Shown here one piece after another: positions 4,000-57,151 of a stretch of 64,000 bases of DNA (positions are counted from its first letter, which is position 1; the number at the start of each line of letters is the position of its first letter). A program made the position numbers and the translations under genes. Source of the stretch: Frigoribacterium sp. VKM Ac-2836 (GTDB lineage: Bacteria > Actinomycetota > Actinomycetes > Actinomycetales > Microbacteriaceae); the NCBI RefSeq assembly GCF_013248995.1, contig NZ_JABRPK010000006.1, forward strand, positions 1 through 64,000, given 5' to 3'. The notes beneath the pieces were generated by a model. It searched no databases. It saw nothing but the letters and a program-made list of their open reading frames with translations, and was not told the DNA's origin.

Positions 4000-4067
4000 C
4001 GTCGCACCGCCCTCTGAACGTCGCACCGCCTGTTTCGGCGGTGCGACGTACAGTTCGTGGTGCGACG
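4000..4067. repeat. Palindromic element, family A copy 1
   Basis: Outer arms CGTCGCACC (4000-4008) and GGTGCGACG (4059-4067); inner perfect 13-bp stem 4018-4030/4037-4049 with a 6-nt loop. The outer ends and the CTGAACGTCGCACCGC module recur in the element at 9207-9264. It lies just after the copA stop, so it may also terminate transcription. Confidence 0.7.
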
Positions 4068-4381: not shown

Positions 4382-4405
4382 CCGGCCGCTCGGCAGCACA
4401 CAGCC

Positions 4406-4469
4406 GAACACCACCGACGGGACAGAAAACCGCGCTGTTCCTGGGTGTTCTGTCCCGTCGATGGTGTTC
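4406..4469. repeat. Palindromic element between convergent genes
   Basis: 22-bp arms 4406-4427 and 4448-4469 (one mismatch) around a 20-nt centre. It lies between the convergent zinc-ribbon gene and the gene ending at 4494, where it could end transcription both ways. Same size class as the other palindromes but unrelated sequence. Confidence 0.65.
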
Positions 4470-4493
4470 CGGCACGGGAGGCGCGGGGCGGCG

Positions 4494-9070: not shown

Positions 9071-9206
9071 GGGCGGGCCTCCTCGGGATCAGCGTCCGAG
9101 TCTGCCGGTCCGGTCGCGCCGCCGCCCTCCCCAGTTCTGGGCGCTGACAGCTCCCGCACGTCCATGCCACGCCCTGCCCGCCTGCCTGCCTGCGGAGTGG
9201 GTGTCA

Positions 9207-9264
9207 CACCACGTTCTGAACGTCGCACCGCGCAATTCGGCGGTGCGACGTTCAGAACGTGGTG
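9207..9264. repeat. Palindromic element, family A copy 2
   Basis: Perfect 25-bp arms 9207-9231 and 9240-9264 with an 8-nt loop. Shares CTGAACGTCGCACCGC with the element at 4000-4067 and the outer end GTGGTGCGACCCC with that at 18787-18852. It lies past the 3' end of the MFS gene at 9292. Confidence 0.8.
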
Positions 9265-9291
9265 CGACCCCCTGATCCGGTTCGTACCGGA

Positions 9292-14438: not shown

Positions 14439-14466
14439 GCCGGCGCGCACATCCCGCCACCCACCA

Positions 14467-14524
14467 CGCCAGGAGGTGGACACCGCACCACGAGAACGCT
14501 TGGCGCTGTGACCACGTCCTGGCG
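14467..14524. repeat. 58-bp repeat, family B copy 1
   Basis: Ends CGCCAGGAGGTGG and CCACGTCCTGGCG form a 13-bp stem with one mismatch. Over 58 bp it matches the reverse complement of 48454-48511, including CCACGAGAA and TGGCGCTGTG in the centre. It lies between the 3' ends of the AraC gene and the convergent pyruvyl transferase gene. Confidence 0.75.
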
Positions 14525-14545
14525 CTGTGCCCGGCGCCGGGCGAG

Positions 14546-15951: not shown

Positions 15952-18243
15952 ATGGGCATCCAGACCTCGCTCGACGCGATCCACGAGGCCGACCGCCTGG
16001 TCGACTCGATGCGGCTCGCCGACGACCTCGCGCTCGACGCCGCGCGCACCGGTGGGGCCCGCACGATCCGGGTGCTCCGCGGTGCCCTCGGCAGCCAGGA
16101 CCAACTCGTCGCCATCGCGGCCACGAACGCGCTCGCGCAGGTCTTCGACGAGCAGGCCGACGTGGTGCTGAGCGACCTGCTGTCGAGCGACCGCACCTTC
16201 TTGCGTGAGCACGCCGCGTCCGCGCTCAGTCAGCGACTGCCCCGGTACGACACCATCGGCCGGCTGATCGGACTCGTCATCGCCGGGGGCTTCACCGGCA
16301 TGGTGGCCCAGCGCACGCTCGAGCAGTGGTCGTCGTCCGCCCCCGCCGTGGTCGCGGTGGCACTCGAGGGTGCCCTCATCGGCGTGCACGAGCCCGCCGC
16401 GCGGTACCGCCTGGTCGAGACCCTCGGGCTGGTGCGGGCCCGCATCGCCTCGCGCCCGCTCTCGACCATCGCCCGAGACGGGGGCGAGGACGAGCACGTC
16501 CGCGTCGCCGCCGTGTCGGCCCTCGGCCAGCGACGCGGCGACCAGGCCGTCGCCGCCGTCGTGCGCGAGCTCGCCCGTCACGACGGCTACCTCGGTGACG
16601 TCGCGCGCCTCGCCGAGATCGACCTCTCGGCCCGCGACGACGTGTTCGGCGGTGACCGCGGGCTCGACCGCACCGGCGACCGGGGCGGCGCCGACCCCGT
16701 CGACCTCGCCGACCCCGCCGGGCGCGAGGGTCTCACCATCGCCCAGCTCTTCCTGCACGCCGACATCGACGCCGGCCTCACGCACGCCGGCAGCGGCGAC
16801 AACGGTGGCATCGCGACGCTTCTCGTGCGGCTCGGCGACGCGCTCGCCGCGGGAGGCGCGGCGCACGTCCTCGACGGCCGTCACGTCGCCAGGGTCGTCA
16901 CCCTCTCGCGGGGATCGGCCGACGCGGCGGTCGCGAGCGTCCACGATCTGGCGATCCGCGCCTCCGGACACGTGTACGGGCGCGTCCCGCTGCTCAGCGA
17001 CCCCGTCACGTCGGCGACCGCGTGGCCGCTGCGGGTCGCCGCGCGTCGCGGCATCCGGCGGGTGCTGCGCGCCGCGGGCGGCGTCGACCTGCTGCACCTG
17101 CGCATGGCCGACGTGGGCAGCCTCGCGGCGGCCGACGTGGCGCGCGAGCTCGACATCCCCGTGGTGTTCACGGTCGCGCCCGACCCGCACGCCGTCATCC
17201 AGTCCCTCGACCTGTCGGGCGCGCTGACCCGCGAGACCTTCGGCGACGTCGACGAGGTCGAGCACTTCTGGTTCCGCACGCGACTCGTGCAGCAGCTCGC
17301 CTCGAACGCGTCGCACACGGTGTTGTTCCCCCGGCCGGAGCTCGAGCGCGACATGCGCGAGCTGGTCGGCATCGACGTCACCTCCCACCCCGAGCGCCAC
17401 ACGATCGTGCCCGAGGGCATCGACCTCGACGTGGTCGACCGCTCCGTCGCCGAGGCCGCCGAGCACGCCGCGGGCCTGCCCGCGACCCCGCCGATGGCCG
17501 AGCTGTGCGCCCTGCTCGAGACCCTGCCGCCCGAGCGTCGCGGCCTGCCGCTGCTGGTCAGCGTCGGACGCCTGCACCGGGTCAAGGGAATGGCGACCAT
17601 CGTCGAGGCGTGGGCCGCCGACGCGGCCGGTGCCGACGGGGCCGCCGCGGCCGGGTCCCACGCGTCCGGGGTGCCGCTCCGCGACCGAGCGAACCTGCTG
17701 CTGATCGGCGGCGACCTCGAGCACCCGAGCGCCGACGAGCGCGAACAGCTCGACCTGATCGACGCGATCGTCCCCGCCGGTCGGCACCGCGCCTCCGGAC
17801 TGCTGCTGCCCGGCCACCGGCCGAACGACACGGTCGCCCGCTGGGTCGCCGCGGCGCGCTTCGGCCTGCCGGGGCTCGCGGCACCGCGCGGCGTCTACGT
17901 CTGCGGCAGCCTGAAAGAGGAGTTCGGCATCGCCCTGCTCGAAGCCATGGGCTCGGGCCTGCTCGTCGTCGCGCCGCAGGGGGGCGGGCCGTCGACCTAC
18001 GTCCGTCAGGGGGACACCGGCTGGCTCACCCGCACCTGGGACGTCGACGCCCTACGCCTCGCGATGGGCGAGGCGCTCACCGCGGCCTCGGCCGAGACCA
18101 CGGAGGCGCGCGCGGCCCGGTCACGCGACACCGTCGAGCGCTCCTTCACGATCCAGGCCATGGCGCGGGCGTTGTCCGGCGTCTACGGCACGGTGCACCA
18201 CGACGAACTCGAACAGCGCGAGTGGAGCGTGAGCGCACGATGA
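15952..18243 (+). CDS. HEAT-repeat / GT4 glycosyltransferase fusion
   Basis: 763 residues. Residues 1-220 are helical HEAT-like repeats (LVAIAATNALAQVFDE, LREHAASALSQRLP, VRVAAVSALGQRRGD). From about 265 a retaining GT-B glycosyltransferase begins, with LLVSVGRLHRVKGM, a GGDLEHPS insert as in sucrose-phosphate-synthase-like GT4 enzymes, and the C-terminal donor motif EEFGIALLEAMGSG with its E-x7-E spacing. Likely cytoplasmic, building a glycan from NDP-sugars; the HEAT part may dock partners. GAGAGG precedes the ATG. Its stop overlaps the next start (ATGA). Confidence 0.87.
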   Translation: MGIQTSLDAIHEADRLVDSMRLADDLALDAARTGGARTIRVLRGALGSQDQLVAIAATNALAQVFDEQADVVLSDLLSSDRTFLREHAASALSQRLPRYDTIGRLIGLVIAGGFTGMVAQRTLEQWSSSAPAVVAVALEGALIGVHEPAARYRLVETLGLVRARIASRPLSTIARDGGEDEHVRVAAVSALGQRRGDQAVAAVVRELARHDGYLGDVARLAEIDLSARDDVFGGDRGLDRTGDRGGADPVDLADPAGREGLTIAQLFLHADIDAGLTHAGSGDNGGIATLLVRLGDALAAGGAAHVLDGRHVARVVTLSRGSADAAVASVHDLAIRASGHVYGRVPLLSDPVTSATAWPLRVAARRGIRRVLRAAGGVDLLHLRMADVGSLAAADVARELDIPVVFTVAPDPHAVIQSLDLSGALTRETFGDVDEVEHFWFRTRLVQQLASNASHTVLFPRPELERDMRELVGIDVTSHPERHTIVPEGIDLDVVDRSVAEAAEHAAGLPATPPMAELCALLETLPPERRGLPLLVSVGRLHRVKGMATIVEAWAADAAGADGAAAAGSHASGVPLRDRANLLLIGGDLEHPSADEREQLDLIDAIVPAGRHRASGLLLPGHRPNDTVARWVAAARFGLPGLAAPRGVYVCGSLKEEFGIALLEAMGSGLLVVAPQGGGPSTYVRQGDTGWLTRTWDVDALRLAMGEALTAASAETTEARAARSRDTVERSFTIQAMARALSGVYGTVHHDELEQREWSVSAR

Positions 18244-19652
18244 CCCTGCTCGTCATCAGCCCGGATTACGCGTCGCACCTGCTGCCCCTCGCGACCCTGG
18301 CCACCGAGTGGCGCGATCGCGGCGAGCGCGTCGTCGTCGCGACCGGGCCGGCCACCGCCGCCATCGTCCGGTCGTTCGGCTTCGAGCGTGTGCACCTGCA
18401 GCTCGGTCGCGGCTCGAACCCCGGCGTGATCCGCGCCGAGGAGCAGGTGGCCGAAGAGGACGCGTCGCTGCGCGGCTTCTTCGACGCCACCCGGCTCGGC
18501 ATGGTCGAGACGCTCTCGTACCAGGCGCGCGAACGTCTCACCGACCTCATGTGGCAGCCCGTCGCGACGGCCCGGGCCGTGCTCGACGTGGTCGCCGCCG
18601 TGCAGCCCGACCAGATCGTCGTGGACCACCTTGCGTTCAGTGCCCGGCTCGCACTCGTCGCCGGGGGCGTCTCGTTCGCCGACGTCGTGCTCGGGCACCC
18701 GACGGCGCTGCCCGTGGGCGACGAGGTCTACGGCTGCCCGCCCGAGTGGCCCGCGGCCTTTGGCGGCGCGCAGCCTTCCGAGGCGAGTCGCACCACCGAT
18801 GTGGCGTCGAACCACGCACATCGGTGGTTCGACGCCACATCGGTGGTGCGACCCCCGGCCCCGGGCGTGGGGGGGCTGCGCGAGCTGTGCCAGCGGGTCG
18901 ACGCCTCGTTCACCGCCGAGTGGAACGCTGCACTGGCCGAGCTCGCTCCGCACCTGGCTCCGTCGACGAGTGCGTTCGGCGAGCACGGCGACCTGCTGCT
19001 CTACAACTATCCCGGCGAGCTGGCCGACCCCGCGCGTGAGGCCCTGCTGCCGCCGCACGTCTGGCTCGGCTCGGCCGTGCGTGCCGAGCCCGTCGACACC
19101 GAGGTCGCCGCGTGGCTGGCCGCCGATGCCGACCCCACGCCCGCCCCCTTCGTCTACGTCAGCTTCGGCAGCTTCCTGTCGGTGCGGTCCGACGTGCTCG
19201 GGCGTGTGGCCGAGGCCCTCCGCCGTGTCGGGGTGCGGGCCGCGATCGCGCTCGGCTCGGGTGACCGGGCCGACCTCGGCGAGGTGCCGCCCGACTGGCT
19301 CGTGCGTGAGTTCCTGCCGCAGGTGACGTTGCTCGACGCGGCGGCCGCGGCGGTCACGCACGGCGGCAACAACAGCGTGACCGAGGCGATGACCGCGGGT
19401 GTTCCCGTCGTCGTCCTGCCGTTCTCGACCGACCAGTTCGCCGGGGCGGCGGCCCTCGAACGGACCGGAGTCGGCGTCGCGCTGGCCCCGAACACGGCGA
19501 CCGTCGACGAGCTGGCGGAGGCGCTGCGGCACGTGCTCGACCTGCCGTCGCGCGACCCCGCTGCGGCCGGGCGGCTGGCCGGGCTGGCGGCGTCCCTGCG
19601 CGAGACGCCCGGGCGGGCACGAGCCCACGCGGCACTCACCGGACGCGGCTGA
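18240..19652 (+). CDS. UGT/MGT-like glycosyltransferase carrying an in-frame palindrome
   Basis: 470 residues, GT-B fold. The C-terminal nucleotide-sugar motif THGGNNSVTEAMTAGVPVVVLPF (His near 374) is the UGT/MGT signature; the N terminus (LLVISPDYASHLLPLATLATEWRDRG) is the usual acceptor-domain start. Translationally coupled to the HEAT-GT4 gene. Residues about 183-204 (SRTTDVASNHAHRW onward to VVR) are encoded by a perfect 66-bp palindrome, 18787-18852, which adds 22 codons without breaking the frame. The insert falls in the loop before the second domain, so activity may be kept. Acceptor unknown. Confidence 0.87.
   Translation: MTLLVISPDYASHLLPLATLATEWRDRGERVVVATGPATAAIVRSFGFERVHLQLGRGSNPGVIRAEEQVAEEDASLRGFFDATRLGMVETLSYQARERLTDLMWQPVATARAVLDVVAAVQPDQIVVDHLAFSARLALVAGGVSFADVVLGHPTALPVGDEVYGCPPEWPAAFGGAQPSEASRTTDVASNHAHRWFDATSVVRPPAPGVGGLRELCQRVDASFTAEWNAALAELAPHLAPSTSAFGEHGDLLLYNYPGELADPAREALLPPHVWLGSAVRAEPVDTEVAAWLAADADPTPAPFVYVSFGSFLSVRSDVLGRVAEALRRVGVRAAIALGSGDRADLGEVPPDWLVREFLPQVTLLDAAAAAVTHGGNNSVTEAMTAGVPVVVLPFSTDQFAGAAALERTGVGVALAPNTATVDELAEALRHVLDLPSRDPAAAGRLAGLAASLRETPGRARAHAALTGRG
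18787..18852. repeat. Family A palindrome inserted in frame in the glycosyltransferase gene
   Basis: Perfect 29-bp arms 18787-18815 and 18824-18852 around an 8-nt loop. Ends GTCGCACCAC and GTGGTGCGAC match the ends of the family A elements at 4000 and 9207. Length 66 bp (22 codons), no stop in the frame used. Confidence 0.85.
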
Positions 19653-19686: not shown

Positions 19687-19744
19687 CGAGATGTCGCGAC
19701 GTGCCGCTCACCTTCGAACGTGAGCGGCACGTCGTGACATCTCG
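19687..19744. repeat. Palindromic element / bidirectional terminator
   Basis: 24-bp arms 19687-19710 and 19721-19744 with one G-T wobble and a 10-nt loop. It lies between the convergent glycosyltransferase genes (stops at 19652 and 19772). Confidence 0.75.
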
Positions 19745-57036: not shown

Positions 57037-57080
57037 AAACGAGGAGGCGCGCGCCACCCGAGCGCGCCTCCCCCGCTGCG

Positions 57081-57144
57081 CGACACCCCCTGTTCGGCAC
57101 GACACCCCCTGTTCCGAGGGTGTGACGCGGAACAGGGGGTGTCG
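57081..57144. repeat. Tandem-plus-inverted palindromic element
   Basis: CGACACCCCCTGTTC twice in direct repeat (57081-57095, 57100-57114) and once inverted (57129-57144). The 16-bp stem 57100-57115/57129-57144 lies 8 bp past the PTS IIC stop, so it may be a terminator. Confidence 0.65.
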
Positions 57145-57151
57145 AGAGCGC

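Follow-up and report, generated by a model that had tools for sequence, protein, structure and literature searches.

Palindromic repeats that spread through bacterial genomes are known in several forms, and some of them enter protein-coding genes. The Rickettsia palindromic elements (RPEs) are found between genes and in frame inside protein genes. They comprise several subfamilies, and are described as about 150 bp long, encoding a conserved peptide, with nearly half of them located in ORFs (PMC10969869). The GTAG-REPs, associated with RAYT transposases, are extragenic palindromes of 20-40 bp located near stop codons, mainly between convergent or tandem genes, with some intragenic copies, while the CGTC-REPs, which include RPE-4, RPE-6 and dRS3, have no dedicated transposase known and also have intragenic copies (PMC3733652). 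In-frame palindromic insertions are best described in Rickettsia, while intragenic REPs are reported in several other species (PMC3733652; PMC10969869). A further case is that of nematomorph mitochondria, where perfect inverted repeats are found inside protein-coding genes (PMC6649704). No such family appeared for Frigoribacterium or Microbacteriaceae in the titles and abstracts of the open-access literature that we searched.

Here, we analysed a 64,000-nucleotide stretch of Frigoribacterium sp. VKM Ac-2836 (contig NZ_JABRPK010000006.1, positions 1 to 64,000), designated below as the window. A first-pass annotation had noticed a 66-bp perfect palindrome in frame within a glycosyltransferase gene and proposed that it was a mobile element tolerated within a coding region, as in Rickettsia. 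This reading is largely right, but it requires three corrections. The family is overwhelmingly extragenic, the letters of the insert have changed or been replaced since insertion, and the linker that hosts it is too variable to show a letter-exact empty site or a target duplication. Mobility is inferred from distribution and from turnover at the occupied sites, not from observed movement.

A family of 66-bp palindromes with a fixed register

The palindrome at 18787-18852 is exact. Its left arm (18787-18815, plus strand) of 29 nt reads GTCGCACCAC-N9-GTCGAACCAC and is followed by an 8-nt loop (18816-18823), then by a right arm (18824-18852) that is its exact reverse complement. As RNA it folds at -64 kcal/mol, against a mean of -24.85 (sd 3.44) for shuffled sequences, none of 200 being as low. 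It belongs to a subtype that we term N (outer GTCGCACC, inner GTCGAACC), which also has intergenic copies in this genome (G000 in what follows, the other G numbers standing for the genomes used in comparison). The first-pass annotation stated that the ends of the palindrome recur at 4000 and 9207. This understates the case: 4001-4066 and 9203-9268 are complete 66-bp copies with the same internal layout. Both are intergenic and of a second subtype, H. The former, with arms paired at 24 of 29, lies 13 bp after a stop codon and has counterparts at the matching place in G010 and G005; the latter is paired at 28 of 29, and G010, G005, G013 and G015 carry N-subtype copies in this region, though not at the same base. 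Two intergenic copies of divergent subtypes are also present in the window, at 4405-4470 (CGAACACC, arms 24/29; present in G010 and G005, absent in G013 and G015) and at 57080-57145 (GCGACACC, arms 23/29). Interestingly, single GTCGCACCRC 10-mers are not in excess in the window (41 with up to 1 mismatch, 45.7 expected); it is their arrangement that is, with 27 matches of a loose arranged pattern in the genome and 0 in the control.

A fixed-spacing pattern allowing up to 3 mismatches found 30 places in the genome, with 0 in the control. A covariance model built from 27 of these (three places with 3 mismatches being left out) has matches in all 16 genomes of the genus at E <= 0.001, from 5 in G002 to 105 in G013, both strands being counted and at most 150 candidates being scored per genome, and it finds 44 distinct places in G000. 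The stem co-varies: on the 27 copies 90.5% of stem cells pair against 83.4% in shuffles, and 66 cells are changed on both sides against 23.3. We then searched 616 kb of five genomes for long palindromes (at least 25 of 29 paired) without imposing any motif. This gave 77 centres, 5 of them artefacts of an N run, and 51 share one geometry, with ACC at -28 and/or -9 from the centre, GGT being mirrored, all on even centres (orthologous copies are counted separately). Around this register the letters differ between subfamilies (GTCGCACC, GTCGAACC, GATGCACC, GATGAACC, CGAACACC, ACTGCACC and others) but mirror each other across the stem. The arms carry direct, not inverted, repeats with a 19-bp step, and the outer and inner octamers of one copy resemble each other (3.48 of the first 5 letters against 2.42 in shuffles, maximum 2.66; as copies are related, this is no probability). 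The bare register pattern has 45 matches in G000, 35 in G004 and 37 in G008, with 0 in each control, although one of the 45 (C1:1119103) is not palindromic by eye and is taken as chance.

Model hits at E <= 1e-5 came from 12 of 249 genomes of the family, 5 of the genus and 7 of three other genera (g53, g5 and g78); in G142 and G069 (genus g53; for example at loci L157 and L158) several relatives of the element are 67 bp long, which would break a reading frame, others being 66. Among 150 genomes, 3 of them of the genus, the bare pattern stands above its control in the three genus members and in G124 (9), G087 (6), G136 (5) and G019 (4), others showing 0-2, as do controls. However, the five G136 matches do not look like this palindrome, and not all of those in G019 look palindromic. 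Rfam gave a single sub-threshold hairpin match (mir-555, 21.3 bits against a cut-off of 92). Other palindromes were noticed nearby or in related genomes. A different one at about 19687-19744 (CGAGATGTC...GACATCTCG, 27 of 29 paired), just after the glycosyltransferase gene, has similar copies elsewhere in G000 and G005 and seems to be a second palindromic repeat family. Another at 14463-14528 has GCC in place of ACC at the outer register (22 of 29 paired), with similar GCCACGAAGTGGAC-type palindromes in G005, G013 and G015. Finally, GACCCC-type palindromes with the same 19-bp step but a wider loop (register -30/-11), in G005 (C1, near 2576000-2609000) and one in G015 (C1), are possibly a sister family.

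The copies sit mostly just after stop codons. Using our own codon-usage gene caller, we found that 2 of the 44 model places lie inside a CDS. With the places of the bare pattern added, 57 copies of G000 were scored: 25 convergent, 27 tandem, 2 divergent, 2 in CDS and 1 at an edge, against 12.1 convergent, 27.4 tandem and 14.5 divergent expected from the 616 kb, and 24 of the 27 tandem copies lie nearer the upstream stop. In G008, 28 were scored (12 convergent, 13 tandem, 2 divergent, 1 in CDS; 12 of 13 tandem nearer the stop), not counting three copies in a transporter gene discussed below. Of 55 further loci from the genus and family, some of them duplicates, none was inside a CDS. A wider survey gave 167 copies in 1.22 Mb, control 0; the regions were chosen in part because they hold copies, so that densities are not genome averages.

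In-frame copies in two protein linkers

The host gene (18240-19652, plus strand) is open throughout and codes for a 470-residue UGT/EryCIII-like GT-B glycosyltransferase, matching PF06722 and PF00201. NCBIfam gives only matches below its cut-offs, macrolide glycosyltransferases first, and the nearest solved structures are GT-B enzymes such as TuUGT202A2 and macrolide glycosyltransferases, at about 20% identity. The element supplies 22 codons, at about residues 183-204, within a linker. AlphaFold2 gives pLDDT below 50 in two stretches, residues 178-206 and 59-71, and the first, modelled as a coil, holds the element. Orthologues were found in 12 of 16 genomes of the genus (none in G001, G008, G011 and G012), and 17 loci were aligned, weak hits (about 41% identity or less, or element-only matches) being dropped. 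The copy is present in 7 (G000, G005, G009, G010, G013, G014 and G015), absent in 5 (G002, G003, G004, G006 and G007) and absent in the 5 orthologues aligned from outside the genus. On a tree from 417 gap-free codons the carriers form one clade and need one change (support 100/99). The outcome that would have spoken against insertion, namely all orthologues carrying conserved amino acids on diverged DNA, is not seen. The linker itself is hypervariable, with Gly/Ala runs; a second linker, at about residues 296-302 and in the orthologues of G005, G013 and G015, carries Asp/Pro/Ala-rich expansions of variable length in some species, unrelated to the palindrome. It is noteworthy that the window copy has no stop in any of six frames. 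By contrast, in the frame used, 11 of 18 H-type copies of the model set have a stop on the strand as listed; the H-like copy of G014 differs in that stretch and is open.

Once in place, the spacers of the element changed far faster than the gene. Across 21 species pairs the gene is 93.9% identical on average, third positions 85.2%, the element 74.3%, its four blocks 91%, and its spacers and loop 48.7%. G005 and G015 are 95.9% identical in the gene and 35% in the spacers, while G005 and G009 have identical elements. The subtype grouping (G000, G005 and G009 against G010, G013 and G015) conflicts with the gene tree. Over species pairs 58 mirrored differences are compensated and 111 are not, so that this palindrome decays as well as co-varies. 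Changes of subtype at matched places between genes are also seen, though there places were matched by flanks and some groupings are loose.

The other in-CDS copy of G000 (C6:110273) covers codons 288-309 of a two-domain ABC-transporter ATPase of the oligopeptide/nickel type, between the domains. In the genus 14 genomes have an orthologue, G012 and G014 having matched only 40-45% paralogues. At 18 or more of 29 paired, 11 of the 14 carry copies, 17 in all, of several subfamilies and every one in phase 0; the same 17 pass a stricter test whose control was 0. None was called in G002, G003 and G009, although G009 shows a recognisable decayed peptide. G008 carries three copies of three subfamilies, while G015 carries three and G013 two of one kind, which may be local duplications. 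The G007 copy matches a G007 intergenic copy at 60 of 66 and nothing else compared above 48, and the G000 and G004 copies and two of three G008 copies are also nearest to copies of their own genome. Against a simple species-own rule, the copies of G001, G005, G006, G010 and G011, one G008 copy and one G015 copy are nearest to copies of other genomes, and the others of G013 and G015 tie with or sit close to each other's; in 8 of 11 genomes the nearest compared copy is not clearly the genome's own. To be fair, the comparison set is uneven (55 copies of G000 and 1 each of G006, G007 and G011), and it includes two further calls: a G012 protein that carries a copy in phase 2 (L227:2960-3025, a place that matches an ABC ATPase at 44% identity), and one in G008, at codon 20, which may lie before the true start.

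Insertion, turnover and competing accounts

We think, with good though not complete confidence, that the segment is one copy of a genus-wide family of palindromic repeats too short to code for their own mobiliser. We infer that a copy was inserted once into the linker, predicted to be disordered, in the ancestor of seven species, that it survived because it kept the frame and sits in a tolerant loop, and that its letters were later overwritten by other copies, through gene conversion, re-insertion or recombination between species. The most likely spreading step is recognition of the folded hairpin, read through the ACC/GGT register, by an enzyme not yet identified; no Y1_Tnp gene (PF01797), the only mobiliser sought, was found in 30 genomes, 16 of them of the genus, while the same search gives hits in 5 of 14 control genomes. 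The 22 residues are probably translated and near neutral. The single gain in the glycosyltransferase, the changing content of the ABC linker and copies missing at matched places (that at 4405 in G013 and G015, where deletion is not excluded) favour mobility. Against it, G013 and G015, 96-99% identical over the 86 kb aligned in long pieces, carry 13 and 14 copies there; 11 pair up by flanks, 2 more by their letters, and the one left over, in G015, lies where the two genomes differ. No new insertion at a shared site is seen in the 100 kb compared, so that movement is slow or past. Several intergenic copies are also kept at the same place in several species, which fits a kept function as well as old insertions. 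A bolder reading, not excluded but less likely than not, is that the palindromes belong to an undescribed mobility system that reads hairpin geometry (an octamer ending in ACC, present four times at a 19-bp step) instead of fixed letters, so that subfamilies drift freely, and that it repeatedly re-targets the same tolerant sites, including the linkers of two proteins, supplying 22-residue modules to proteins in an actinobacterial genus.

It is possible, though we hold this only tentatively, that the family is a functional mRNA 3'-end hairpin, terminator or stabiliser, kept by selection, the coding copies being accidents; this would not exclude insertion of the glycosyltransferase copy. The excess of convergent and the scarcity of divergent locations, the proximity to upstream stops, the very stable hairpin and paired changes in situ at a shared place (TGAAC/GTTCA in G013, G015 and G005 against TGGAC/GTCCA in G000) fit this view. 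However, 0 of 167 copies have 5 or more T in the 8 nt after either end, a terminator does not need a fixed 66-bp ACC/GGT register, and copies sit in coding linkers. A more doubtful proposal is that the changed letters in the glycosyltransferase linker came from ordinary recombination between species at this gene, rather than from copy-to-copy conversion or re-insertion. Indeed, G010, G013 and G015 also share the last bases before the element (GGCCGGAG), against the gene tree. Yet the right flank of G010 resembles G014, not G015, G000 and G005/G009 share the element subtype but not the left flank, and changes of subtype are also seen at intergenic and ABC sites. It is very unlikely that the palindrome was made in place by template switching (quasipalindrome correction) in a low-complexity linker: the linker is hypervariable and the G000 copy is more perfect than its orthologues (29 against 22-27 of 29), but it shares blocks, length and register with dozens of copies elsewhere, and 62 of its 66 letters match an intergenic copy in G009. 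Least likely of all, an ancestral part of the glycosyltransferase lost in other lineages would fit the widely varying linker length, but the segment is absent in the 10 aligned orthologues outside the clade and one gain explains the tree.

Comparison with described palindromic repeats

A family of this sort in an actinobacterial genus, with one clean single-gain case and one linker occupied by different subfamilies in different species, makes the question of whether palindromic repeats build protein sequence testable by comparing close species, while the fixed register under changing, co-varying letters points to a structure-reading partner that can be looked for. As in REP-like repeats in the wide sense, many dispersed extragenic palindromes are present, few of them in divergent regions. 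With RPEs the family shares in-frame presence in protein genes, but its copies are 66 bp long, only 2 of 57 lie in a CDS in this genome, and no conserved peptide is encoded: the reading phase is 1 in the glycosyltransferase, 0 in the ABC ATPase and 2 in the G012 protein, and the peptides differ (compare PMC10969869). With GTAG-REPs it shares the location near stop codons, but it is longer, has by eye no GTAG at the ends of the copies inspected, and is accompanied by no Y1_Tnp gene in the 30 genomes searched. CGTC occurs inside many copies; however, it lies in the paired stem, whereas CGTC-REPs are 20-40 bp with an unpaired CGTC tag, and here the element is symmetric, with its 19-bp internal step in each arm; the phyla listed for CGTC repeats do not include Actinobacteria (PMC3733652). 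The coding palindromes of nematomorphs are mitochondrial and reach 284 bp (PMC6649704). The Frigoribacterium family works like both REPs and RPEs, but does not have defining features of each (length, tag, transposase, conserved peptide), and we therefore place it beside them and not as a member of either.
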